This document shows positions 3,547 to 16,364 of a stretch of DNA of 64,000 nucleotides, one piece after another; positions within the stretch are counted from its first letter, which is position 1; each line of letters opens with the position of its first letter. Under the pieces are notes generated by a model. The model worked only from the letters and a program-made list of their open reading frames with translations. It did no database searches and was not told where the DNA came from. The stretch covers positions 1 to 64,000 of the forward strand of contig JAUYAO010000059.1 of NCBI GenBank assembly GCA_030692565.1. The letters run 5' to 3'. The translations under genes and the position numbers were made by a program. The stretch is from Nitrospira sp. (lineage in GTDB: Bacteria; Nitrospirota; Nitrospiria; Nitrospirales; Nitrospiraceae).

Positions 3547-4566
3547 TCAGCTCGCCGGCTTCTCTGCGACCGGTTCTTCGGCTTTGGGCGCGCGCATCGT
3601 GTTCAAGTACATGCTCACCGCTTTGGCATCTGCGTCGCTGAGGCCCAGAGCCGGCATCCTGGTTTCGGCCTTCATGGCCTGCGGGTTCTTCAACCAGCGA
3701 TACACCCAGGTCGAATTGAGCCGGAAGCCCGCGCGGTCCAGAGCCGGACCCACTTTGCCGCCTTCGCCCGCCAAGCTGTGGCAACCGTTGCAACCATACT
3801 TGTTCTGATAGAGACGCTTGCCCAGTTCGGCCTGCTGCGTGGCTTGCTCAGGCGTCATCGTCATGTCCGGGCGCGTGATATTCAGGCCTTTGCCTGGGCG
3901 AGTCCCGAAATTATTGAGCATACCCTGCGCAGTATCGAGCGCCTTCTTGGCGGCAACCATCACAGCCTGCTCTTTCGCATAGGACGCTTCATCCACTTCC
4001 ACGTCCTTCTTCGTGGCTTCGCTCTTTTTCTCGGCTTCCTCGCTGGCCTTCTTCTCGGCCGCTTCATAGGCCTGCTTGGACTGATCGAAACTGTCCTGGG
4101 CCGTCTTCAGCGCATCGGTCAATTCTTTCTTGCGCTCTTCAACCTTGAACTCCAGCTTCATCCCGTGCAGCGTCCGCACATACCCGACGATCGCCCAGAT
4201 TTCATCCTCGGACAATGTGTACTTGAAGGTGGGCATCGTCGGCACGGCGAAGTCGTCGTCGCCGATCTTATCTCCACCCGGGCTGGTGTCCTTCATGTCG
4301 CGAGAGATCGTATTGAAAATATCCTCGTCTTTGAAGGTGCTCATTTCTGATTTATTCGAAAGATCTTTCGGCTTGGGATCCGGCATGGATGACCAGTTGA
4401 AGCCTTCGTTCTGCCGTCCGCTCTCGCCGTGACAATGCATGCAGTAGTGGGTATAGAGTTCGTGCCCCTTCTTCTGCTGCTCACTGGCACAGCCGCCTGC
4501 GGTCATGGCCCAGATTCCAATCAGGCCGGCGACCGCGCCTATGACTTGTAGCCTTGCCGCCTTCAT
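3547..4566 (-). CDS. dihaem cytochrome c lipoprotein
   Basis: 339 residues from the ATG at 4566, which overlaps the stop of the upstream gene as ATGA, so the two are translationally coupled. The N-terminus is a signal segment ending in AGGC, a plausible lipobox. Two class-I c-haem motifs are present, CMHCH near residue 37 and CNGCH near residue 260, separated by a long Lys/Glu/Ala-rich helical, probably coiled-coil, segment (about 130-215). It would be a periplasmic, membrane-tethered electron carrier. It is the last gene of the eleven-gene respiratory operon. A frame open further upstream, to 4971, is only out-of-frame overlap with the neighbouring gene and is not used. Confidence 0.85.
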   Translation of the reverse strand: MKAARLQVIGAVAGLIGIWAMTAGGCASEQQKKGHELYTHYCMHCHGESGRQNEGFNWSSMPDPKPKDLSNKSEMSTFKDEDIFNTISRDMKDTSPGGDKIGDDDFAVPTMPTFKYTLSEDEIWAIVGYVRTLHGMKLEFKVEERKKELTDALKTAQDSFDQSKQAYEAAEKKASEEAEKKSEATKKDVEVDEASYAKEQAVMVAAKKALDTAQGMLNNFGTRPGKGLNITRPDMTMTPEQATQQAELGKRLYQNKYGCNGCHSLAGEGGKVGPALDRAGFRLNSTWVYRWLKNPQAMKAETRMPALGLSDADAKAVSMYLNTMRAPKAEEPVAEKPAS

Positions 4567-5402
4567 GCTGCCTGTCCTTTCTTCAATTTTCTGATCAGGA
4601 CAAACTGGAACCCCAGCGCCAGGGCCGCCGCGAAGGCCGCGTAGTAGTAGCCGGAATAATCCGGCGGCGCTTCTGCACGGAAATACCACCAGGAAGACAC
4701 GGCCTTCTGTGACCCCTTCTCGACCAGGTCGCCTGATCCGTCTTTCCGTCCATCCCAGACCGCGAATGCGATATTGATAAATCCGCCGAGAGCAAGCTGG
4801 GTATCTTCGGCCGAATGCTCGGTCGCCAACGGCCTCGTGAAGACCACTTTCCAGGTCCCGGTCGAGAACGCTCCGATGGCTTTCACGTCTTGATGTGTTT
4901 GGACCTTCAGCGTCCCAAATCCCTGGGCGTTCATATCCACGCCCTTCTTGTCCTTGTTCTTCCAATACCAAATGTTGACCGGGCCGCCTTCGACTTGCGA
5001 CATCGGCTGACCATGGGCGAAGTGGGCCTTCTTGTCGCCGACCATAAATTCGATCGCGGCGGCGTCATCAGGGTCCTCCGTCGGATCGGCATATTCCAAC
5101 AATATCGCCACTTGCGTGCCATCATGCAACGCGCGGACAGAGACATCCTTCACGGTGGTTTCCAAAATACGGTTCGGCCAATGGACCTGCGGGGACATCG
5201 GGAATTTCGCCGGCTTGGCCGTGCTCCAGATAGCCGCATTGGGATCGTCAACGGGAAGGGTTCCCTTGACCATCGGCGCGCTCACAGACACACTCTCGCT
5301 TTCCTGCGCCAAGCCTGGAGCCGCTCCCGACAGAACGAGGGCCGTCACTGCGACCGCTCCGACTCCGTTCACCCATTGTCTGATCTGATTCGCCGATTTC
5401 AT
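4563..5402 (-). CDS. ethylbenzene-dehydrogenase-gamma-like haem protein, membrane anchored
   Basis: 279 residues. An N-terminal signal peptide (cleavage near GLAQE) is followed by a beta-rich domain of about 190 residues resembling the b-haem-binding gamma subunits of type II DMSO-reductase-family enzymes (ethylbenzene, DMS and selenate/chlorate types). A C-terminal transmembrane helix near residues 250-270 ends in a Lys-rich tail. No CxxCH motif is present, so any haem would be b-type. Similar proteins are proposed as gamma/anchor subunits of periplasmic nitrite oxidoreductase in Nitrospira, but no NXR alpha or beta gene lies in this window. It sits between two cytochrome c genes in the operon. 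The family call is from motif and fold resemblance only. Confidence 0.65.
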   Translation of the reverse strand: MKSANQIRQWVNGVGAVAVTALVLSGAAPGLAQESESVSVSAPMVKGTLPVDDPNAAIWSTAKPAKFPMSPQVHWPNRILETTVKDVSVRALHDGTQVAILLEYADPTEDPDDAAAIEFMVGDKKAHFAHGQPMSQVEGGPVNIWYWKNKDKKGVDMNAQGFGTLKVQTHQDVKAIGAFSTGTWKVVFTRPLATEHSAEDTQLALGGFINIAFAVWDGRKDGSGDLVEKGSQKAVSSWWYFRAEAPPDYSGYYYAAFAAALALGFQFVLIRKLKKGQAA

Positions 5403-5454
5403 ACGGGCCTCGTATTCGATTCACAGAAGGACAACGACCGATCGTCGCTTCGCA

Positions 5455-6174
5455 TTATTCCCACGTTCTCGGTGACTGATGGGCGCCATCGTACTCGCCC
5501 ATGATGATCTTCCAGATCCACTCGTCCGGCAACTCCACTTCCCATCGCGGCATCGCCGACTTCCAGGGCATACCTTCGATCGGGAGGCCGACGCCGCCCT
5601 TCTTGATCCGCCAGAAGAGATAGCTCTCCTGGAGCATGGCGATCGTAGTGGGATCGGAGAAATTCGCGGGTGGAGGATTGAAGCCGCGGGCCGCCGGCCC
5701 TTTGCCGTCAAACTTGCCGCCGTGGCATGGCGAACAGAACGCGGCGTAGAAGCCTTTCCCCTGCATAATGTTTTCAGGCGTCTTCGAGACCGGGTTCGAG
5801 AGCCCGGTGTACTCTCCCGGAGGCGCCGGATGGATGGTGCGGTTTTCCGCGGGAGGCGCATCGCTCGTCGCGGTGCTCCCGTAGGTTTGCCATCCGACCA
5901 GCAACGGGAAGAGGATCAGGAAGCCGTAGCGGGCCGCCTGCATCGCCCCGATGTTTTCGCCTGTGAGAAAATTCAGGATCGGAGCGAAGAAGGCATCCTT
6001 CGACTCGCGGCTCAGGGTCGCGAAAATGACGATGCCCGTCGTCGTCAGCATGAGGTACAGAAAAATCAGGCTGGACGGCAAGGGGGCGGAGCCCGGAATA
6101 TTGGGCACCACAAACTTCAAAAACACATACATCGAGAGAATCAGAAGCACTGGCCTTACGAGGGAGCCGCCCAT
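5455..6174 (-). CDS. membrane-anchored monohaem cytochrome c
   Basis: 239 residues. Three hydrophobic segments occupy the N-terminal half (about 7-25, 33-52 and 80-97), followed by a periplasmic cytochrome c domain with one CSPCH motif near residue 147 and later Met residues that could be the sixth ligand. The start has a strong GGAGG ribosome binding site. The stop of the upstream cytochrome lies 9 bases before. The architecture, several helices plus a C-terminal c-haem, fits a subunit of a membrane-bound quinol/cytochrome complex rather than a soluble carrier. Confidence 0.85.
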   Translation of the reverse strand: MGGSLVRPVLLILSMYVFLKFVVPNIPGSAPLPSSLIFLYLMLTTTGIVIFATLSRESKDAFFAPILNFLTGENIGAMQAARYGFLILFPLLVGWQTYGSTATSDAPPAENRTIHPAPPGEYTGLSNPVSKTPENIMQGKGFYAAFCSPCHGGKFDGKGPAARGFNPPPANFSDPTTIAMLQESYLFWRIKKGGVGLPIEGMPWKSAMPRWEVELPDEWIWKIIMGEYDGAHQSPRTWE

Positions 6175-6183
6175 ATCCCCTCC

Positions 6184-6807
6184 TTACTTCGCTTGCGCGA
6201 CAGTCACGGTTTCAGCTTGAGCCGACTTCACGGGAGCCGCCGGAGCCGCCCCGGGCATTTCCAGTTCAGACGGATTCACCGAGATCGGTTCGCCGCTCAT
6301 CTGCTGCAGGAACGCGATCACGGAGAGAATTTCATTCTTCGATAATCCGATGGGATTCTTATTGATGTAGGGCATCCTGGCCGGATATTCCTTCGGCAGC
6401 CCCTCGTGGCGATAGTCCAGATAGATGTAGGCCTGAGGCTGGGTCAAACTTTCGAAGATGAATTCGCGGCTCAGTTTTGCCCCGATGCCCTTGAGATCGG
6501 GACAGCGGGCGGACTCGCTCGGGCCGATAGTATGGCAGAGCGCGCATTGGCCCTTGCTGAAGAAAATCTTCTGGCCGATCGACGCCATATCGGCCGGCGT
6601 CTTGATACTGGCGATATCGATGCTCTCTTCCGCCGGCGGCAATGAGGCCATCTGCGGTACGGCCAAGGCGACCAACGAGAAGAGGCCGAGGACGATGGCC
6701 ACAAACCCGATGACCCGCAAAAACTGCGAGCGGATAAAGAGCAGAATGAGCACGCCGCTCCCGATGACCGAGAGACCAATCAACTGTAATTTGACGACTT
6801 CACTCAT
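6184..6807 (-). CDS. membrane-anchored monohaem cytochrome c
   Basis: 207 residues. Two closely spaced N-terminal transmembrane helices (about 6-24 and 30-50) are followed by a cytochrome c domain with CALCH near residue 90 and a likely Met ligand in RMPYINKNP. The C-terminus is Ala/Pro/Val rich. It is encoded 27 bases after the bd-like B gene and 9 bases before the next cytochrome, so it is clearly in the same operon. It probably passes electrons between the membrane core and the periplasmic cytochromes. Confidence 0.85.
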   Translation of the reverse strand: MSEVVKLQLIGLSVIGSGVLILLFIRSQFLRVIGFVAIVLGLFSLVALAVPQMASLPPAEESIDIASIKTPADMASIGQKIFFSKGQCALCHTIGPSESARCPDLKGIGAKLSREFIFESLTQPQAYIYLDYRHEGLPKEYPARMPYINKNPIGLSKNEILSVIAFLQQMSGEPISVNPSELEMPGAAPAAPVKSAQAETVTVAQAK

Positions 6808-6834
6808 AGGACTCCTCTGAGCAAGACGATCCGG

Positions 6835-8691
6835 TTAGATCTGCTTGTCCAATGTTTGAGAGCCACCCGCCATAGCCGGCAATGCCCCATGGCCGTCGCC
6901 ACTCTTTTCTTTGCCGCCATGCGCATTCTTCGCTTTATCGCCCATGGTCGCCACCCAGAAGATGAACGCCACGATCATGCAGAACATGAAGGTGTTGGCG
7001 GCCATCAGCGCGGCGGCATAACCCAAGGCCGGTGAGAAGGCGTATTGCGAAGAGTCGCGCATGACGCCGTACACATGCCAATGGACCCGTGAAGACGATC
7101 GCGCGTACCCCATCAAGGTCATCAAGAGAATGACCATAATGGCGTTGAGAACCAGCGAATACCCGGCGCGCGGCGGCATTTTCCCCCACACCATCTCGGT
7201 CGTGGTTTTCGCGCTCTTCAGGAGCAACGCCGTCAACGGCGTGATGGTGACCATGACGAAGATGACGAGCAACACCTGCGAGGTCGAGAAGTAGTTGATG
7301 CGAACGATCGCCGGGACGAAGTAACCCCAGACGCCCAACACGACCACCACGATACCGGCAATGATGAGAACTCCGCCCATCACGGCATTCGCCAACTTCG
7401 CCCAGGTGGCGGTGTCTTCCTTGCCCGCGCGCCAGTACATGATGAAGCTCATGAAGGTCACGAGAATCATGAGGTTCGACACGGTCATTTTGGCCGACAT
7501 GACGCCGAAGACGCCCAGCAGAGGATGGTGTGTTCCACCCATCTTTCTGGCCTCTTCCAGACTCGCCACCAGCGAGTGGGGCGTCATCCAGACCCCAAGA
7601 CAGAGCAAGAGGATGATCAACATGGCCAGAATCGGCTTGCGATAACGCAGCTCCGACCCGGGAATGCGATGTGTGATGCCCATCCAGAAGTAATAATTGG
7701 AGCCGAGAAACAGCACCCCGATCAACATGGCCTGAAGGATGAACAGCCAGGAGAGGAATCCACCCATGAGGGTGATGCCCATCTGCTGGTTGTACTGGTA
7801 GATTTCGCGCATCAGCCAATAGCCGGCGAAGGGCAACGGGAGAAGACCGAACACGCCGATGAAATTTCCGACGTAGCCCATCCAATCATAATGCTCGCGC
7901 TCTTCCGGGGTCCGCGCGGAGAGATACCGGATACCGGCGTAGGCACCGCAAATATAGCCGCCGAGCACCACGTTGGCGATCAGCCGGTGAATATTGACCG
8001 GCCACCATGTGGGGTTCCATGTCGCCGCCCAGGCCCGCGCCATATCCGACCCTTCGGCAATGACGACCGGACTCGCTTGGAACGTGGCCCAGGAGTTGGG
8101 GATGATCATGATGAAGAAGGCGAAGACATTCAGGAGGAAACCCAGCACCAAGTGAAAGACCTTGCTGCGGCCTTCCGACATGGCATCCCACCCGTACCAA
8201 TACATGTAGAGCGTCGCGGTCTCGAGCAGGAAGAGTGCGCAATAGACCATGAACGACGGGAAGAAGATGTCGCTGAGATAGGCCATCAGCTTGGGATAGG
8301 CGCCGATGAGGATGAACAACAGAATGCCGCCGAACAGGGCGGTGGTCGAATAGGCGGAACTCAGCAGCTTGGTAAATTCTTTGGCCAGCTTGTCGTAGCG
8401 CTTTTCGCCGCTCTTCCAGCCCACCACTTCGCACAACCACGCAAAAATCGGTACGCCGAGCACAAAGCCCGCGAGCAAGAGATGCAGTTGCGCGACGATC
8501 CACACCAGGTTCCGGCTGCCGATTCCGGGCACGTCGCGATAGGCCACGGCCGATGCGCCGCCGGAATCCGCCGCCAGCCCGACGACGGGAGCGGCAAGCA
8601 CTCCCAGGGTCGCCACGAAGGCAGCCACCGCAGCAGGCGATTCGGTAAAGAACCGAATGAGCCGTTCAATCATTCCAGGCCGTTGCATCAT
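6835..8691 (-). CDS. cytochrome bd-like oxidase subunit I homologue (bd-like B)
   Basis: About 618 residues from the ATG at 8691, chosen because GGAGAGG lies 8 bases upstream; a GTG at 8700 would place the ribosome site against the start. The N-terminal half resembles CydA: a His in VAQLHLLLAG matches the position of the haem ligand of the first helix, and NIHRLIANVVLGG resembles the segment around the second haem ligand. It has many more hydrophobic helices than a normal CydA and no clear CydA Q-loop. No cydB-like gene follows. It is the second such protein in the operon and paralogous to the gene at 12662-14365. Oxygen reduction is therefore not assured; it may be a haem-bearing quinone or proton module of a hybrid complex. 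Confidence 0.8.
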   Translation of the reverse strand: MMQRPGMIERLIRFFTESPAAVAAFVATLGVLAAPVVGLAADSGGASAVAYRDVPGIGSRNLVWIVAQLHLLLAGFVLGVPIFAWLCEVVGWKSGEKRYDKLAKEFTKLLSSAYSTTALFGGILLFILIGAYPKLMAYLSDIFFPSFMVYCALFLLETATLYMYWYGWDAMSEGRSKVFHLVLGFLLNVFAFFIMIIPNSWATFQASPVVIAEGSDMARAWAATWNPTWWPVNIHRLIANVVLGGYICGAYAGIRYLSARTPEEREHYDWMGYVGNFIGVFGLLPLPFAGYWLMREIYQYNQQMGITLMGGFLSWLFILQAMLIGVLFLGSNYYFWMGITHRIPGSELRYRKPILAMLIILLLCLGVWMTPHSLVASLEEARKMGGTHHPLLGVFGVMSAKMTVSNLMILVTFMSFIMYWRAGKEDTATWAKLANAVMGGVLIIAGIVVVVLGVWGYFVPAIVRINYFSTSQVLLVIFVMVTITPLTALLLKSAKTTTEMVWGKMPPRAGYSLVLNAIMVILLMTLMGYARSSSRVHWHVYGVMRDSSQYAFSPALGYAAALMAANTFMFCMIVAFIFWVATMGDKAKNAHGGKEKSGDGHGALPAMAGGSQTLDKQI

Positions 8692-8717
8692 GGATTTCAC
8701 CTCTCCGTCGCCCAGTC

Positions 8718-9737
8718 TTAGGGTGTTGCTGGAGCCTTCACCGGTGCCTTGGCATCAGCGGGCTTGGCCTTGCCGGCCTTCCCCTTGTCTTTATCTTTCG
8801 CTGCCTCTTCTTCGGCTTTCTGCTTTTCGATCGCCTCAACCTGCGCTGTGAGCTGAGCCACATGCTTCTCGGCCTTGTTGAGGGTATCAACGGGCTTGTA
8901 CAGCGGCGCGGCTTTGACTTCCGGCTTTTTGCAGCATTCATGCGGATGGGGCGTACTGACCGGCAGTCCGGCCCAAAACAGCATCGAGAGCACGAGGCCC
9001 ACCAGCGTGGTGGCCGTCAGCATCAGCCCTTGATCGGCCGGCACACGCATCAAATCCCACCGCGTGACCAACGCTTGATAATCTCCTGATGCGGGTCCCG
9101 CACTCTGCGCCGCGCTCCGGATCACACGACCGACGAGAGACACGCCCAGCAGCATCATGACGATCAGGACGGTGGTAGAGACGCCGCCCCAGAGGGTGAG
9201 TTCGATCCCGATCTTTTCGGCGACGGGAACCGCTTTCAGCATCTCTGTTTCAAAGAGGCTGTGCGACAATTCGATGGCCGTCTGCGTGGCGAATCCCACC
9301 ACCAGCCACAAGATCGGCATAAAGAGCGCGCCCACGAGGGCGGTCTTGAGCCACAGCGATAATCCAAGTCCATCCGGCGGTTCTTTGCTGAGTTTTTCAA
9401 GAAACAACGTTCTGGCCACGACACCGGTCGCCCAAATGTCGATGGGGATACAAATCAGGAAGAGCAGCGCAATCCCCGCGCCCTCGCCGAGATGCGGCTC
9501 GGCCACCATGGCAAGAATCGGCATGGCGAACACGGTCACGGGACTGGCGAGATACATCAGGAACGCCAGGCCGATGCGGGTCTCAAAGTGAATGAGTCCC
9601 AGCGCCAGGAACAGGAGGCAAATTCCAATTTTGATTGGGAACCCGGTCCAACAAGTGGACCAGAGGACGTTCAATCCAAGCTTGACAGGGGACGGTAATT
9701 CTCGCTCGGTCATAGTTTCATCTGGGGCGCGGTTCAC
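8718..9737 (-). CDS. multi-pass membrane protein of unknown function in the bc/bd operon
   Basis: 339 residues from a GTG; an ATG at 9713 is an alternative and neither start has a clear ribosome site. About seven hydrophobic helices occupy residues 20-255. A short His/Cys-containing segment (HPHECCKK) follows, then a Lys/Ala/Glu-rich, helical and probably coiled-coil C-terminal tail of about 70 residues. I do not recognise the family. Its position between cytochrome b and bd-like B, with gaps of 14 and 17 bases, argues for a structural subunit of the same complex. The adjacent Cys pair with nearby His residues could bind a metal. Confidence 0.7.
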   Translation of the reverse strand: MNRAPDETMTERELPSPVKLGLNVLWSTCWTGFPIKIGICLLFLALGLIHFETRIGLAFLMYLASPVTVFAMPILAMVAEPHLGEGAGIALLFLICIPIDIWATGVVARTLFLEKLSKEPPDGLGLSLWLKTALVGALFMPILWLVVGFATQTAIELSHSLFETEMLKAVPVAEKIGIELTLWGGVSTTVLIVMMLLGVSLVGRVIRSAAQSAGPASGDYQALVTRWDLMRVPADQGLMLTATTLVGLVLSMLFWAGLPVSTPHPHECCKKPEVKAAPLYKPVDTLNKAEKHVAQLTAQVEAIEKQKAEEEAAKDKDKGKAGKAKPADAKAPVKAPATP

Positions 9738-9751
9738 GTCGCCCCGCTCAA

Positions 9752-10864
9752 CTAGTCCAAAAATTCCCGGTTGATAATGGCAGCCACGGTAAAGAGCAGA
9801 ATCATCGCCATCACGACAATCCAGCCGATCAGTGCGATGGGGCGCTTGAAAATATTCCGCTCCGGATCCTTATCGATAAAGGGCAACGCGGCCAGCAGGG
9901 CCATGAACGCGCCAGGCAAGGCGATGGCGCCCAGAAACTGACCGAACTCGCCACCGAACATTTTGAGCCGCAGCAATTGGAACAGGAACAGAAAATACCA
10001 CTCCGGCTCAGGATGATAGTCACCAGGATCCGGCGTCGCTTCCTCAAGGAGCACCACCGGCTCCCAGAACGCCAACGCGCAGATGGTGAAGAACACCGTG
10101 ATCATCCCGACGATATCTTTCCAGATTTGGCGCGGGAAGAAATAGTCGGTCTTCGCCTTGATCTCCTCCGGGGTGCCACGGAACGGCCCGGCTGGACCTG
10201 CGGCCCTAAACAAGAAAATATGCAACCCGGCAAGACCCATCAAGGCCGCCGGCAAAATCATCACGTGGATGACAAAAAAGCGGCTGAGCGTCATTTGTCC
10301 GGGAATCGCCCCGCCCTTGAGGAAACGGGCCATGAAATCTCCGATGACCGGAGTCTTGTCCATGATCTCGACGCCGACCGTCGTCGCCCAATAGGCGCGC
10401 TGGTCCCATGGAAGCAAATAACCGGTAAACCCGAAGCCCATGACGATTCCGAAAAGGGCCAGACCGACCAGCCAGATCAATTCGCGAGGACTTTTGTAGG
10501 CGCCCCAGAGAAAGACCTGCGACATATGCGCGAACACACAGACCACCATCGCGGTCGAACCCCAGAAATGGTAACTGAGGAGGAACCACCCGTAGTCGAC
10601 TTCGTGAATGATGTATTGCGTGCTGGCAAATGCGTGGTCGGCGGTGGGCACATAGTAGAACATCAGCAGAATGCCGGTGACGGCCTGCATGATGAAGATG
10701 AACAACAGAATGGAGCCGAATACGTAAGCCCAGCGCGAGCCACCGGGAACCGGCTCATTGAGCATCTTCGCTTGAATCGTCTTAAGGCCGACCCGCTCGT
10801 CGACAAAGGCAATGACCTTTTCGAGTGTGGTAAGCTCAGTTGAAGAGGACGGTGTCTGTTGCAT
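9752..10864 (-). CDS. petB: cytochrome b, bc1/b6f type, single-chain
   Basis: 370 residues. It carries the two haem-b His pairs in b6-like spacing: H99/H113 (13 residues between) and H200/H215 (14 between). The quinol-site PEWY motif is at 287-290. The C-terminal third corresponds to subunit IV, so b6 and subunit IV are joined in one chain. It oxidises or reduces quinol in the membrane together with the Rieske protein encoded 5 bases upstream. It belongs to the eleven-gene operon where bd-like proteins and several cytochromes c replace a classic cytochrome c1 or f. The gene symbol reflects the family only. Confidence 0.93.
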   Translation of the reverse strand: MQQTPSSSTELTTLEKVIAFVDERVGLKTIQAKMLNEPVPGGSRWAYVFGSILLFIFIMQAVTGILLMFYYVPTADHAFASTQYIIHEVDYGWFLLSYHFWGSTAMVVCVFAHMSQVFLWGAYKSPRELIWLVGLALFGIVMGFGFTGYLLPWDQRAYWATTVGVEIMDKTPVIGDFMARFLKGGAIPGQMTLSRFFVIHVMILPAALMGLAGLHIFLFRAAGPAGPFRGTPEEIKAKTDYFFPRQIWKDIVGMITVFFTICALAFWEPVVLLEEATPDPGDYHPEPEWYFLFLFQLLRLKMFGGEFGQFLGAIALPGAFMALLAALPFIDKDPERNIFKRPIALIGWIVVMAMILLFTVAAIINREFLD

Positions 10865-10869
10865 AGTGA

Positions 10870-11805
10870 TCAGATGATCCGGATTTGAGTTTTAGTACCG
10901 GCCTTGAATTCCATATCGATGATTTCGACCTCGCCCGTCGCAGACACCTTAATGGGAAGGGCGTCGAGCGCACGCGGCGCCGGTCCGTCGAGCACTTTCC
11001 CTGACGCGTCATAGATGCTCAAATGGCAGGGACACAGAAACACCTGCCCCAACACTTTGTGTTGCCGCCACTTATACCCGCACCCGAGGTGCGGACATTT
11101 CCCGGAAAACGCGACGAAGGGGAAATCTTTCTTATTGGTCCAGACGGTCTTGCCGAAGGCATCCTTAAACTCCATGTCCTTGCCCTGATACACCTTATCC
11201 AGGACCGCAGGAGTCACCTTCAACACCCAGACGTTTTTCTCGATCTCAGACTCGGGCATGTAGGCTTCTTTGACTTTGCGCTTATACTTGAACTGGACAC
11301 CGATATCGTCCCGCTTGATCTTGCTGACATTGCCGATCTTAAGCCATCCGTTGTCGAACGGAGAATACATGGGCTTCATGAGATAGCGCAGAACCGGAAA
11401 GGCAATCGGGAGGCCGATCAGGAATCCAATGACGTGCGTGAAGTTCATGAAGAACGTACGGCGCTTGACGCTCTTCTCCAACTCAGGGAAGGGAACCAGC
11501 ACCTCACCCGGCGTGACATGCACACGCTCTTCTAGATGGGCAATCTCGACTTCATGCGTCGTCACATAGTCATCACGCTTGAACGGGGGCAGTTCGAGAA
11601 TGTCGCCGGCTGCCGCGCGCAGCTCAACGAGATTCTCACTGACCGACTGCACGAACGTCATGGCGACTTGCCGCTCCCCGCTGCCATTCATCGATACAAC
11701 GATATGGCTGATCTCATGGGAGAGAGGGTCGACGATGACCTTCGAGACTTCCCCGATTTCGCGGTCCGTCACGCGGACTTTTGATTTGAGTTTCGGCTGC
11801 ATCAT
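10870..11805 (-). CDS. petC: Rieske iron-sulfur protein with N-terminal PRC-barrel-like domain
   Basis: 311 residues. Residues 1-105 resemble a PRC-barrel (for example DREIGEVSKVIVDP followed by a short beta barrel). A single transmembrane helix is at about 118-140, followed by a Rieske domain with CPHLGC (C237, H239, C242) and CPCH (C258, C260, H261), giving all four cluster ligands and the disulfide pair. Rieske proteins normally begin just before the anchor helix, so the extra cytoplasmic barrel is unusual. The start overlaps the stop of the upstream cytochrome by one base (TAATG). It transfers electrons from quinol at cytochrome b to a c-type cytochrome. An ATG one codon downstream is possible. 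Confidence 0.92.
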   Translation of the reverse strand: MMQPKLKSKVRVTDREIGEVSKVIVDPLSHEISHIVVSMNGSGERQVAMTFVQSVSENLVELRAAAGDILELPPFKRDDYVTTHEVEIAHLEERVHVTPGEVLVPFPELEKSVKRRTFFMNFTHVIGFLIGLPIAFPVLRYLMKPMYSPFDNGWLKIGNVSKIKRDDIGVQFKYKRKVKEAYMPESEIEKNVWVLKVTPAVLDKVYQGKDMEFKDAFGKTVWTNKKDFPFVAFSGKCPHLGCGYKWRQHKVLGQVFLCPCHLSIYDASGKVLDGPAPRALDALPIKVSATGEVEIIDMEFKAGTKTQIRII

Positions 11806-12611
11806 TACTTCATCTTGATAGGTTTCGGTGTATTGACGGACGTATTCTTGAACGTCGAGAGCCAGGCAGCTAAGGCCTGCACATCCTTGAGCTCCATCAG
11901 ATCCTTATATTTGTCCGGCATCTTGCCCTTGTCATACTCGGCATCAAAGCCTTCGGCCTTGTAGGACTTGGGATCAAGAATCTTCTTGGTGATTTCTTCC
12001 TGCGGCAAGAGCGTCCCGATGTTATCGAGTTCAGGTCCGCGCTTCTTTCCACCCTCGCCCTTCAACTTGTGGCAGTTATAACATTCCTGCAGCTGCCATT
12101 GTTCTTCGCCGATTTTCAGGACATCGCCGCCAGAGGCTGCCGCAGAAGCAGGAACCGCCGCAGCCGCGCCGGCATCTTGACCGGCTGAACCCTGCGCCGC
12201 TCCCAACGCCTTAATCCGTTCCGTTAATTCCTTGGCCTTGAGATCCAGCTCCTTGGTGCGCGCAATGACTTCGTCCGCCTTCCAGGGATCGAGAATGTTG
12301 GGCTTGCCCTTCAGAATCTTGACGATCTTCCCCTTTTCATCTTCCGGATCGTATTGCGGCCAGAGGGACGCGCCGGAGATGAACACCGTGCAAAGAATGG
12401 CATAGAAGACCAGAAGGGACACGAGCGCCTTGCCGCCGCTCATCACCTTCATGGTCGGGGCATCGAGAATCAAAAAGACGACGGTGCCGAGCACCGCATA
12501 CCCAAAGAACAGCCATCGGAAAACAGGCGGAAAATCGAACGTCATTGTGGCCACCCACAGCCCGGCCCCGATCACTAATCCGACGATGATCTTCATGATT
12601 GCCTTGCCCAT
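11805..12611 (-). CDS. membrane cytochrome c (three helices plus monohaem domain)
   Basis: 268 residues. Three N-terminal hydrophobic helices (about 7-26, 31-51 and 62-82) are followed by a charged helical linker, an Ala-rich stretch and a cytochrome c domain with CYNCH near residue 180. A Met-containing segment (KGKMPDKYKDL) near residue 230 probably holds the sixth haem ligand. The gene overlaps the Rieske gene by one base. It is a candidate functional replacement for cytochrome c1 or f in the complex. Confidence 0.85.
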   Translation of the reverse strand: MGKAIMKIIVGLVIGAGLWVATMTFDFPPVFRWLFFGYAVLGTVVFLILDAPTMKVMSGGKALVSLLVFYAILCTVFISGASLWPQYDPEDEKGKIVKILKGKPNILDPWKADEVIARTKELDLKAKELTERIKALGAAQGSAGQDAGAAAAVPASAAASGGDVLKIGEEQWQLQECYNCHKLKGEGGKKRGPELDNIGTLLPQEEITKKILDPKSYKAEGFDAEYDKGKMPDKYKDLMELKDVQALAAWLSTFKNTSVNTPKPIKMK

Positions 12612-12661
12612 AGTGCTCCTCGTACTAAGTCGCTATGAATGCACCGGGATAAATCTGAACC

Positions 12662-14365
12662 CTACTTCGCCCCAGCCGGAACCGGGCTGCCCTCAGACGC
12701 ATGCTCCTTCGGATGCGAGGCGCGGAGCGTCACCAGAATCGCAAAACTCACCACCGCATAGAACACCACAGTAATCCCCGTGATGTACCAAGCTGAATAG
12801 GCCAGCGTCGGCGTAAAGGACTCCGCCGTAAAGTCCGGCAGCAGGTTGTACGTGTGAAAGTATTTCCGCAGGAGCGAGCGAACCGCCCCCATCAGCCCCA
12901 TCGTCCAGATCGCGCTGAAGGCCAGGAAAATCAGAACGAACTGGGAAGCATAATCGATCTTGCCCCAGACGATCGTCCCCTGAGTCACGGCCCGATTGTA
13001 GATGATGTAATTGACCACCGTGACGAAGACGAGCGTGAAGGCCGCTGAATTCTTCGCCGGCATCAGGGCCAGGAAGTTCCAATCGGACGGCAATTCCAAC
13101 TCTGCGACCAGTTTGGCTCCGGTCGGAGCAAACCCGTGCGGCGTGAGCCAGATCGCGTTGCCCACCACCACCATCAGGAAGCCGATCTTGATCACCGTCC
13201 GCGAGGAGACCGTGATCGGAATAAAGCGACCGAGAATGGCCGGCGCCAGCAACATCGGCAAGAGAAACATCAGCGACTTGGGATCGGGAGCCGGGTAATC
13301 CGTCAACACCTTCGTCATGACCAGGGGAAGCGCGATCATCACGATCGGGGCAATAATGGTCATACGGACCTTCTCGACGCCCTCGATGCGCTTCATACTG
13401 AGCCAGATGTAATAGTTACTGGCCAGGAAGATGAGCCCGATCATCGCCCCCTGCATCTCAAAGAACATCGACAACTGGTCCGCCATCATATAGGGGCAGA
13501 TGGACGCATCGTAGTCGCACAGCTCATAGGCCAACAGATAGCCCATGAACGGGAGGAACAAGAGCGCACCCACACCGATCATATTGCCGACGAAGCCCAT
13601 CCAATCGTAATAGGCCCGCTCTTCGTCCTTCGTCGACCCCATGTACATGTACGCGGCGATCAGGCCGGCCACAAAGCCGCCGAACGTCACATTTCCAACC
13701 AGCCGGTGCATATTGAGCGGCATCCAACTGTAGTTGAACATCTTGTCCCAGATGCTGGCAGTCGCCAGGAACTCAACGGGAGAGACACCCTCGGCTTTCA
13801 CCGGCGTGTTCATGAAGGAGGTAGGGCCGTCGATGACAAAGAGCGTAATCGATCCGATCAAATTCAAGAGCACTCCGAGCGCGATATGCCGCGCCTTCTT
13901 ATTTCCCTTCCAGGCATCCCACGTATAGAAATACAGGTAGAGGACGAATGTCTCGCCGATGAATAACAGGGGATAGATCACGGCGAAGACGATAAAGAAG
14001 TGATTGATCAGCCACGTCGTGAATTGCGGATAGGTCGCCAGCAACACGAAAATGAACAGACCACCGGTCAACGCGGTCATACTGTACAGAATGACCGTGA
14101 CCTTCGTGACCTCTTTTGCCAATCGATCGTAACGGGGATCCTGCTTCCGGTATCCCAGCCACTCCGAGATGACCACGAAAATGGGCGCCCCGAGAATGAA
14201 TCCTGCGAACAGGATGTGGAGCTGAGCGACGATCCAGACAGCTGTCCGATTCCCGGTATAAGGGAATTCAACCGGCGGCGTGCCCGGCGCCTGTGCGTAG
14301 GCCGTCCCGCCGAACAGCGCTAGAAGCGCAATGAGAGCCATGAGACTGCGCTGCCATGTTTTCAT
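12662..14365 (-). CDS. cytochrome bd-like oxidase subunit I homologue (bd-like A)
   Basis: 567 residues with a cleavable-looking N-terminus (ending near GTAYAQA) and about 13 hydrophobic helices. It is paralogous to bd-like B: both share VAQLH in the first core helix, an E-T-x-x-LY helix followed by a WDAW/WDAM segment, and NMHRLVGNVTFGG in the region of the second haem ligand. It is longer than a typical CydA plus no partner CydB is encoded, and the usual quinone loop is not apparent. It is the second gene of the operon, 35 bases after the first cytochrome. It may carry b/d-type haems in a hybrid complex; oxidase activity is unproven. Confidence 0.8.
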   Translation of the reverse strand: MKTWQRSLMALIALLALFGGTAYAQAPGTPPVEFPYTGNRTAVWIVAQLHILFAGFILGAPIFVVISEWLGYRKQDPRYDRLAKEVTKVTVILYSMTALTGGLFIFVLLATYPQFTTWLINHFFIVFAVIYPLLFIGETFVLYLYFYTWDAWKGNKKARHIALGVLLNLIGSITLFVIDGPTSFMNTPVKAEGVSPVEFLATASIWDKMFNYSWMPLNMHRLVGNVTFGGFVAGLIAAYMYMGSTKDEERAYYDWMGFVGNMIGVGALLFLPFMGYLLAYELCDYDASICPYMMADQLSMFFEMQGAMIGLIFLASNYYIWLSMKRIEGVEKVRMTIIAPIVMIALPLVMTKVLTDYPAPDPKSLMFLLPMLLAPAILGRFIPITVSSRTVIKIGFLMVVVGNAIWLTPHGFAPTGAKLVAELELPSDWNFLALMPAKNSAAFTLVFVTVVNYIIYNRAVTQGTIVWGKIDYASQFVLIFLAFSAIWTMGLMGAVRSLLRKYFHTYNLLPDFTAESFTPTLAYSAWYITGITVVFYAVVSFAILVTLRASHPKEHASEGSPVPAGAK

Positions 14366-14400
14366 GATGCCTCGCCGCTCCTCCTCACTAGAGTGAAATC

Positions 14401-14955
14401 TTACTTGCCTGCCGGAGCCGGGGCAGCCGGCGCTGCTTCAGGTGCCGCCGCTGGCGCTGCCGCCGCAGGAGCCGCCGACACGGCCGCCGCATCGACCCAC
14501 GCCTTCTTACCTTCATCCCAACCCTTGCCGGCCAATCCGAAGTTGCGCTCATACAATACGAGCTTCCAACGATCTTCGTCCGACAATTTGCTCTTCCAGG
14601 CCTTCATCTTGGTGTTCGGCACGCCTTCCGAAATGCGCCAGAACCACACCGCATCCGAATACAGCTTCATCCGGTCGCCGACGCGGAAATCGCGGGCGCC
14701 CGCCTTGACCGGCTTGCCGTCCTTGCCATGGCAGCTGGCGCAATTCACGTCAGGATTCGTCTCGCCGATGAAGAGCTTCCGCCCTTCTTCGAGCTTGGCC
14801 GCATCCGCCCACCAGCCGGCAGGCATGTGCTTATCGGCATACTCGGCAGGGGCAGGAGGAGGAGGAACCACCGGGCCTTCGCCCTCACCACCACCACAGC
14901 CTGCGATCGCCAAGCCCATTCCCAACACCATCATCAGATGCCACGACATTTTCAT
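14401..14955 (-). CDS. monohaem cytochrome c lipoprotein, first gene of the respiratory operon
   Basis: 184 residues. A signal peptide with lipobox IAGC (Cys near residue 20) is followed by a Gly/Pro-rich linker, a cytochrome c domain with CASCH near residue 75, and an Ala/Pro-rich C-terminal tail. A strong ribosome site (GGAGG, about 6 bases before the ATG) is present. A 208-base gap separates it from the next upstream gene, so it probably opens the operon and the promoter should lie in that gap. It is expected to be a lipid-anchored periplasmic electron carrier. Confidence 0.87.
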   Translation of the reverse strand: MKMSWHLMMVLGMGLAIAGCGGGEGEGPVVPPPPAPAEYADKHMPAGWWADAAKLEEGRKLFIGETNPDVNCASCHGKDGKPVKAGARDFRVGDRMKLYSDAVWFWRISEGVPNTKMKAWKSKLSDEDRWKLVLYERNFGLAGKGWDEGKKAWVDAAAVSAAPAAAAPAAAPEAAPAAPAPAGK

Positions 14956-15163
14956 ATGATTTCCTCCACTCCCTTTCTACGCCCCACAATGCTTTTCATT
15001 ACCGACCCATCCATCTTCAAGGCAGAAAAAAACGCCTCCGCAAGGGGCCGACCCTTACAAAAGCGCTACTCTGCGTTCACCAAAACAACCACAGCTGCAC
15101 ATGCCCCATCATCTCTGGCCTTCCACTCCGGCGAGCGCCCCACTCCGCTCCCGGACCGGCCGA

Positions 15164-15709
15164 TTACTTTTTCCGCTTACCCTGCCCCTTCTCTCGCCTT
15201 CCGTCCTGCTTGCGCTGAGACCGAACGACTTTCACGCCAACCAAGAGAGCCACCAACCCGCCGACCACCCCAAGCACCACCCACAACCATGTTGGAGGCG
15301 CCGAACGATCATGAACACAACCGGATCCGAAATTGACCTGGATCCTTCGCTCACTCTCAAGATCCTTCGGATCGAACTGAATCTTATGGTGCTGCTGCTC
15401 GCCCTTTACCTCAACCAGAAGCGGATCACCCAGGTTGTCATTATGCAGGTGAAACGCTGCCTTATAGTACCCTCCGTCATCCGTTGTGACGGTCTGCCCA
15501 TAAGAAATTCTCGTATCCTTGACTAAGACTTCAGTATTGGCGCTCGGCGTCCCATCGGCTTTACACACGAACCCTTCGACCGTATACCGATGGTCGGCTT
15601 CATGGGTAGCGTACAGAATGGTTGGATGTGTGACGAAGACGCAGATGCCGGCCGTGGCGACCACGATGATCCACCGAAAGCCAGACTTCCTTCTTGGTTT
15701 CCACTCCAC
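15164..15709 (-). CDS. membrane protein with carboxypeptidase-regulatory-like (transthyretin-like) domain
   Basis: 181 residues. It has an N-terminal hydrophobic segment (about 11-33), a periplasmic beta-sandwich of about 75 residues of the type seen in carboxypeptidase regulatory or CarboxypepD-like domains (pattern EGFVCKADGTP ... DDGGYYKAAFHLH), a second transmembrane helix near 140-160 and a highly basic tail of Lys/Arg. It is His-rich around residue 105. I cannot assign a function. It lies upstream of the respiratory operon on the same strand but 208 bases away. Confidence 0.65.
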   Translation of the reverse strand: MEWKPRRKSGFRWIIVVATAGICVFVTHPTILYATHEADHRYTVEGFVCKADGTPSANTEVLVKDTRISYGQTVTTDDGGYYKAAFHLHNDNLGDPLLVEVKGEQQHHKIQFDPKDLESERRIQVNFGSGCVHDRSAPPTWLWVVLGVVGGLVALLVGVKVVRSQRKQDGRREKGQGKRKK

Positions 15710-15968
15710 TCGTCCGTGCCAATCCCCTTATTCCGGATCATCCCATGACACGCGACGACTTGCAGAGTATCGTCGAATGCGCCAGCCAATTTTAAGGCCG
15801 ATTCTTGTAGCATAGCCCCTATTCTTTGTCAATTGCGATGGAAGGAAGAAAGGCCCTGAACAAGAGGGGAACGCGTGTTTTGGTACGCTCAAACGAAGAG
15901 GATATTTTCAGAGGAGGCGCGGGGGGAAATGTCCGCGCTGGAAGGGATGAAAACACAACGGCGCGAGC

Positions 15969-16364
15969 CTAGAGATGCCCGCGGGCGCGGGCATCCTGTG
16001 CGATCCGGTCAGCCTCGGCTTTCCGCTCCGACTCTTTTTTCGCAACCCAGCTCTCCCAGGAATTGCCTGACGCCGTGTCTTCTCCGGAAAAGGCCACCGA
16101 TACGACATCTGCATACCGAATCACCTGCACTCCAGAATCACCCTCGGGAAACACTTCAAACGTCGAGTCCTGCCCCTTCACCGTCCGATTGAAAAGATAA
16201 CCGGTCACGTGCTGGCCCGATCGAAGCGTCACCGTCACATCTCCGCGATAGTCGAACGCCAACTCAATCGCCTCTGCCAGCTCTGCAAACGAGTGCGGAG
16301 CAAACTGTCGCCCCTGCAAGGAGCTGGCGGCTCCCGAGGCACTGTGATTCTTCGTATCAGTCAT
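15969..16364 (-). CDS. small conserved-looking protein next to hpnH, possible Sm-like fold
   Basis: 131 residues, cytoplasmic, no signal peptide. The centre (about 35-95) reads as a five-stranded small barrel: VTVTLRSGQHVTGYLF, then a polar turn, then IRYADVVSVAFSGEDTASG, which resembles the Sm/Hfq strand order. A charged helical C-terminus follows (WESWVAKKESERKAEADR). It is encoded 19 bases after hpnH on the same strand, so it is probably co-transcribed and functionally linked to hopanoid side-chain synthesis. The fold suggestion is my reading of the pattern only. Confidence 0.55.
   Translation of the reverse strand: MTDTKNHSASGAASSLQGRQFAPHSFAELAEAIELAFDYRGDVTVTLRSGQHVTGYLFNRTVKGQDSTFEVFPEGDSGVQVIRYADVVSVAFSGEDTASGNSWESWVAKKESERKAEADRIAQDARARGHL

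Follow-up and report, generated by a model that had tools for sequence, protein, structure and literature searches.

Canonical cytochrome bd (CydAB) and the bd-like proteins of Nitrospinota and Nitrospirota are the closest described relatives of two genes, here called bd1 and bd2, that belong to an 11-gene operon on the reverse strand (14955 to 3547) of a 64,000-nucleotide stretch of Nitrospira sp. DNA (GenBank assembly GCA_030692565.1, contig JAUYAO010000059.1, positions 1 to 64,000; the whole stretch is referred to below as the window). Published work is cited here from extracts of the papers. A Nitrospina bd-like protein described in 2013 has 14 helices, with helices in place of the Q-loop, and lacks the quinol residues (PMC3578206). 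In N. moscoviensis, a strongly transcribed cluster contains complex III_1 (CIII_1), bd-like_1, bd-like_2 and alt_nxrC_1, two cytochrome c genes separating the last two of these; a possible III-IV supercomplex was suggested, and the extract gives bd-like_1 no role (PMC6606698). For Nitrospinota and Nitrospirales, OR-N2 and OR-N1 have been proposed to form an oxidase called CydAA' (PMC10839748, PMC12342949), the OR-N2 partner being a NIDE0901-like protein (PMC12342949) and cytochrome c the likely donor, with experimental proof of the subunit composition and the function still lacking (PMC10839748). Finally, TO_2 consists of a bd-like protein and two MrpD-like subunits, and is described as exclusive to Manganitrophaceae (PMC9040806).

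How does the window compare? Its gene content and order are those of the N. moscoviensis cluster as described, with no substantive difference. Two cytochromes c and an NxrC-like gene follow 6835-8700, so that bd2 corresponds to bd-like_2 and bd1 to bd-like_1. The nearest named loci are Nitrospira records: in N. moscoviensis (L012) bd1 is 94% and bd2 87% identical, and order and identity agree as well with N. defluvii (L054) and with the published description. Judged by order and identity, the locus is that of the NIDE0901-like or bd-like_2 gene called OR-N2 in print, the NIDE0901 tag itself not having been seen. The OR-N classification reportedly originated with Murali 2021. Order and strand of all 11 genes are identical in 54 of 80 compared loci and partial in the other 26, mostly because contig ends cut them; such conservation means that the arrangement is not due to chance. 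The content of the window is already published, and the heterodimer idea raised in the initial annotation of this DNA is not new; the genome comparison described here refines the published hypothesis. As things stand, the bd-like pair is the candidate for the role of main terminal oxidase in Nitrospira; the refinement, in which fusions and one-partner genomes turn the heterodimer proposal into a testable choice, is of interest for nitrifier bioenergetics.

The reading that we consider somewhat probable is that the operon combines a cytochrome bc (complex III-like) module with a bd-like O2 reductase fed by cytochrome c, in which bd2 would be catalytic together with the product of cytc_a, and bd1 would be dispensable; the electron path, catalysis and assembly are what we infer from sequences, gene order, fusions, distribution and residues. 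As the catalytic subunit, bd2 would have kept the haem-binding N-terminal bundle of CydA without a clear quinol site. Electrons would reach it from the membrane cytochrome c encoded directly downstream (cytc_a), within the same complex, making bd2 plus cytc_a a cytochrome c:O2 reductase. The paralogue bd1 would be tied to the bc module (14955-9752) and would have lost one histidine (H392) kept by bd2-type proteins; as a probable associate of bd2 in Nitrospirales, it would still not be required for bd2 function. The support comes from gene fusions, genomes that have bd2 only, the kept ligands, the CydA fold and the H392 split, each taken up below, and from N. moscoviensis, where the orthologous cluster is strongly transcribed (PMC6606698).

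In 12 genes from 10 other Nitrospirota genomes, the bd2 orthologue is 775-831 residues long, versus about 620, and carries a tail with one CxxCH (L017 and L124 are one locus and were counted once). Compared with the window's proteins, this tail matches cytc_a best in all 12 cases (45-64% identity), and the five fused genes that were placed in the tree all fall inside the bd2 clade (100/100). Genes that are separate in one genome and fused in another usually encode parts of one complex. Since cytc_a is separate here and fused to bd2 elsewhere, we take the two as a working unit, to which the fusions point. Cytochrome c as the electron donor agrees, at the level of gene structure, with the fusion in 12 orthologues. 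No description of a bd2-cytochrome c fusion was found in the literature searched, which included extracts of the OR-N and TO_2 papers. At locus L050 (7122-10355), a single 1077-residue frame runs through unk (the membrane protein gene that precedes bd2), bd2 and cytc_a without a stop. This frame may be a fusion or an assembly error and was left out of the 12, as it comes from one metagenome-assembled genome, where lost stops and assembly error look alike.

Both open reading frames of the pair are intact. They score 78 bits (bd1) and 48.9 bits (bd2) against Cyt_bd_oxida_I (PF01654; cut-off 26.2 bits), are 34% identical over 571 columns (254 bits), and do not match PF00115, the haem-copper COX1 family. 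The initial annotation had described two paralogous bd-like subunit I proteins with extra helices, shared VAQLH and N-(M/I)HRL segments and no CydB. The paralogy is borne out by the scores and identity just given, and the extra helices by a simple hydrophobicity scale (segment counts in Table 1). The two short segments are real, carrying the residues aligned with H19 and H186 of E. coli CydA, which we take to be haem ligands. CydB (PF02322) is absent from the whole genome as well as from the operon, with 0 matches in the 4.17 Mb assembly (100% complete) by a search that was positive in 10 of 14 control genomes. Across the class, CydB presence varies independently (matches in 65 of 146 genomes, 63 of them above the cut-off). 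Two further CydA-like proteins of the same genome, bd3 and bd4, are encoded close together on contig C1 (C1:23768-29987; L002, L004), and the published extracts report a similar close gene pair for other Nitrospira.

In the tree, bd1 belongs to a clade of 11 rows (support 99/98), bd2 to one of 15 rows (100/100) and canonical CydA to one of 8 rows (100/100); by sequence, bd1 and bd2 are two distinct clades of the CydA superfamily apart from canonical CydA. A structure model of bd2, built from 52 sequences and used for fold family only (predicted local distance difference test, pLDDT, 62.4), matched ten CydA entries with Z scores of 19.6-22.8 and root-mean-square deviations of 3.9-4.6 over 337-359 residues, the next-best folds being the membrane subunits of alternative complex III and polysulfide reductase (Z 13.1-16.4). 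Comparison of an OR-N profile agreed, with a probability of 97.7% for CydA (E 2.2e-12) and 0.3% for CydB. The window's pair is like canonical CydAB in the N-terminal haem bundle, in H19, E107, H126 and H186, and in the CydA fold, but differs in having no CydB, no E99, E445 or M393, no recognisable quinol loop, and extra helices.

The residues were read after aligning 8 canonical CydA sequences together with 34 bd-like proteins. His stands at the H19 position in 32 of the 34 bd-like rows, bd1 and bd2 included, and at the H126 and H186 positions in all 34, while Glu stands at the E107 position in 31. E99 and E445 occur in none of these rows and M393 is not conserved, versus 8/8 canonical rows; all three are presumably functional sites of canonical CydA. 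The initial annotation had proposed comparing the haem ligands with CydA, and the outcome is the same for the two copies: each keeps the N-terminal set, and each is without E99, E445 and M393. With the same pattern in both, neither copy is degenerate at the N-terminal ligands. K252 and E257, which we take to be quinol-binding residues in the Q-loop of canonical CydA, stand opposite Arg in 34/34 rows and Glu in 23/34, respectively, in a region that follows a long insert and is aligned with little certainty. R534 and H542 (bd2 numbering) are new invariant residues, present in bd1 and bd2. Position H392 separates the types: His in 23/23 bd2/bd3/bd4-type rows, Leu in 11/11 bd1 rows.

Distribution was followed in 295 Nitrospirota genomes of at least 80% completeness, drawn evenly across the phylum, with orthologues called by identity and score among the top candidates of each genome (at most four). 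Both genes occur in 109 genomes, bd2 only in nine and bd1 only in four. Within the order Nitrospirales, bd1 is present in 105 of 105 genomes and bd2 in 104 of 105. In the 17 genomes of the rest of the class, both were found in five, bd2 only in nine and neither in three; outside the class, three genomes have bd1 only. A second search, with a family profile, scored every candidate of the 13 one-partner genomes; none from the nine bd2-only genomes matched as bd1-type, and a bd1-type split match came up in just G289, G044, G184 and G012. The bd2-only genomes also carry other family members, taken for bd3/bd4-type (two of them were read); PF02322 is absent from all nine and PF00115 from eight, G164 having one match. 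In G289, an operon (L136, on contig C7) has a cytc_a-like gene along with bd1 and the bc genes, with no bd2, and the genome has no PF00115 or PF02322 match.

Several points weigh against a catalytic bd2 that is fed by cytc_a and needs no bd1. The structure model of bd2 is of only modest confidence (pLDDT 62). The second high-spin haem site of bd2 is unproven, with E99, E445 and M393 unmatched in either copy; H392 and H542 may be haem ligands, H542 being only a candidate. Given the Arg at the K252 position, an altered quinone site may exist. The joint occurrence of bd1 and bd2 in 109 genomes suits a heterodimer, and in the bd2-only genomes bd3/bd4-type proteins may act as the partner of bd2. 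Moreover, bd2 need not be the main oxidase of the window's genome, where PF00115 has two matches; one of them covers nearly the whole profile in a 1108-residue frame and probably represents a fused oxidase of the cbb3 type, as has been described for other nitrite oxidisers.

Is the pair an obligate CydAA' heterodimer instead, with bd1 (OR-N1) and bd2 (OR-N2) forming one oxidase and bd1 in place of CydB, as published proposals for Nitrospinota and Nitrospirales have it (PMC10839748, PMC12342949)? We consider this unlikely. The window's locus does resemble the proposed system in its CydA-superfamily proteins without CydB, its two paralogues per genome and its likely cytochrome c donor, and bd1 is without H392, as a less catalytic copy might be. 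The initial annotation had likewise suggested a heterodimeric core in which one copy may have replaced CydB. Co-conservation in 109 of 295 genomes, the missing CydB and the published precedent are on its side; as worded, however, it is difficult to reconcile with bd2 alone in nine genomes and bd1 alone in four. A CydB stand-in might have lost the haem ligands of the N-terminal part, yet neither copy has, bd1 keeping the same ligands as bd2, and other lineages fuse bd2 to cytochrome c, not to bd1. At the Nitrospira locus L017 (= L124), bd1 is 88% but bd2 only 59% identical to its window counterpart, which indicates separate histories. Unless proteins of the bd3/bd4 type substitute for bd1, these gene contents mean that bd2 cannot in general require pairing as in CydAA'. 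For Nitrospirales, where both genes occur with one exception, the heterodimer is not disproved.

The same Nitrospira locus introduces a further possibility. In the L017/L124 operon (4106-16324), bd1, unk and the bc genes resemble those of the window at 69-88%, while bd2 and the downstream genes read are replaced by a fused bd2-cytochrome c and two antiporter-like genes. Both here and in G245, fused bd2 and antiporters lie downstream of the bd1-bc module and, judged from these comparisons, are an exchanged cassette. More generally, two Mrp/NuoM-like genes (PF00361 family or homologue; called by Pfam for six proteins and by BLAST for the rest) adjoin 11 of the 12 fused bd2 genes, the sole exception being L129, a short contig piece. 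No antiporter homologue was seen in the stretches, of differing length, that were read around 97 unfused bd2 rows; some of these rows may be duplicate genomes, and L003 and L087 both represent the window itself. Neighbours of fused bd2 of about 500 residues and many helices were considered as a second CydA partner and are instead these PF00361 antiporter-like proteins; another candidate partner, L139:2214-3842, proved to be UbiA.

Perhaps, then, bd2 requires only its own cytochrome c, as a fusion or as a partner, to be a full cytochrome c oxidase of bd descent, with no need of CydB or of a second CydA. In several Nitrospirota lineages, including one Nitrospira, it would have joined two Mrp/NuoM-like subunits in a redox-driven ion pump; bd1, having lost H392, would be the subunit that links the bc complex to bd2. 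This is offered tentatively, as an unlikely reading. Slightly more doubtful is the proposal that bd2 is a pump of this kind, TO_2-like, when two Mrp/NuoM-like subunits join it, and that the window's version is an antiporter-less form of the same machine. The antiporter pairs beside fused bd2 and their absence around unfused rows would suit it, as would the description of TO_2 with two MrpD-like subunits (PMC9040806). A gene set of this type is seen at the fused bd2 loci L127, L128 and L144-L150, which by analogy may be TO_2, and some of their genomes may be Manganitrophaceae. TO_2 is reported in the extract for one family only, whereas fused bd2 with antiporters also occurs here in Nitrospira L017/L124. 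The window differs in that its bd2 is unfused and has no antiporters beside it; the ten PF00361 matches of its genome are all on other contigs, and adjacency of antiporter genes is not the same as coupling.

It is improbable that the bd-like proteins are not oxidases at all and instead mediate electron exchange of cytochromes c with quinones, for example in reverse electron transport. Such a role has been suggested in print for a bd-like protein of the NXR region, but that protein belongs to a different cluster. The canonical E445 and E99 sites are indeed absent, and the best folds after CydA are the alternative complex III and polysulfide reductase subunits mentioned above; CydA nevertheless leads these by more than 3 Z units. 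Moreover, in eight of the nine bd2-only genomes no haem-copper subunit I or CydB was found, so that within the families searched only the OR-N proteins would be left as candidates.

That unk is a strongly diverged CydB, as its size (339 residues), several helices and place between bd1 and bd2 might suggest, is so improbable that we reject it on profile comparison (probability for CydB 0.3%, E 0.22; control of OR-N against CydA 97.7%, E 2.2e-12) and Foldseek (best CydB chain E 8.2), its slot outside Nitrospirales being a gap or a short frame of 110-172 residues. A VIA-align run with unk gave no CydB chain among the matches listed, which proves nothing alone.

Table 1. Genes of the operon, in 5' to 3' order of transcription
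Feature	Coordinates	Strand	Basis
c-type cytochrome, operon gene no. 1	14401..14955	-	PF13442
bd1, CydA-like (OR-N1 / bd-like_1 type), 567 residues, 13 hydrophobic segments	12662..14365	-	open reading frame, PF01654, tree, residue table
membrane c-type cytochrome of bc module	11805..12611	-	PF00034
Rieske [2Fe-2S] protein	10870..11805	-	PF00355
cytochrome b (b6/petB type + C-terminal part)	9752..10864	-	PF00033, PF00032
unk, membrane protein, 339 residues, 6 hydrophobic segments	8718..9737	-	no Pfam or NCBIfam family
bd2, CydA-like (OR-N2 / bd-like_2 type), 621 residues, 12 hydrophobic segments	6835..8700	-	open reading frame, PF01654, tree, fold match to CydA
cytc_a, c-type cytochrome, hydrophobic N-terminal segments	6184..6807	-	PF00034; 45-64% identity to fused tails
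cytc_b, membrane c-type cytochrome (Cytochrome_CBB3)	5455..6174	-	Pfam search
alternative NxrC-like haem-b protein (ethylbenzene dehydrogenase / DMSO reductase type II gamma)	4563..5402	-	PF09459, TIGR03477, position of published alt_nxrC_1
cytc_d, c-type cytochrome, two CxxCH motifs	3547..4554	-	open reading frame, start placed inside listed frame

Some variants of the family deserve mention. The paralogue bd1 is the one associated with bc genes; its orthologue at L126:2838-4739 (633 residues) has a long internal insert between conserved halves. A swap of the bd1 C-terminal domain outside Nitrospirales was considered when matches ended near residue 335 in frames of about 505 residues, and was ruled out by direct comparison, which showed the same protein minus about 60 residues. 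At L137 and L138 (G092 and G246), the H19-equivalent is Met and the H375-equivalent Arg, with cytochromes c adjacent; from their sequences, these bd-like proteins are a divergent branch of the family. The COX1-family match in the 1108-residue frame of the window's genome (G000), at C31:84162-85421 (L005), adjoins an NhaA-like gene. Among the loci read, unk was seen solely in Nitrospirales and is one of the operon's least conserved parts (33-100% identity across loci). After its last helix, the consensus TPHPHECCKK is conserved (55 rows), and this tail may bind metal.

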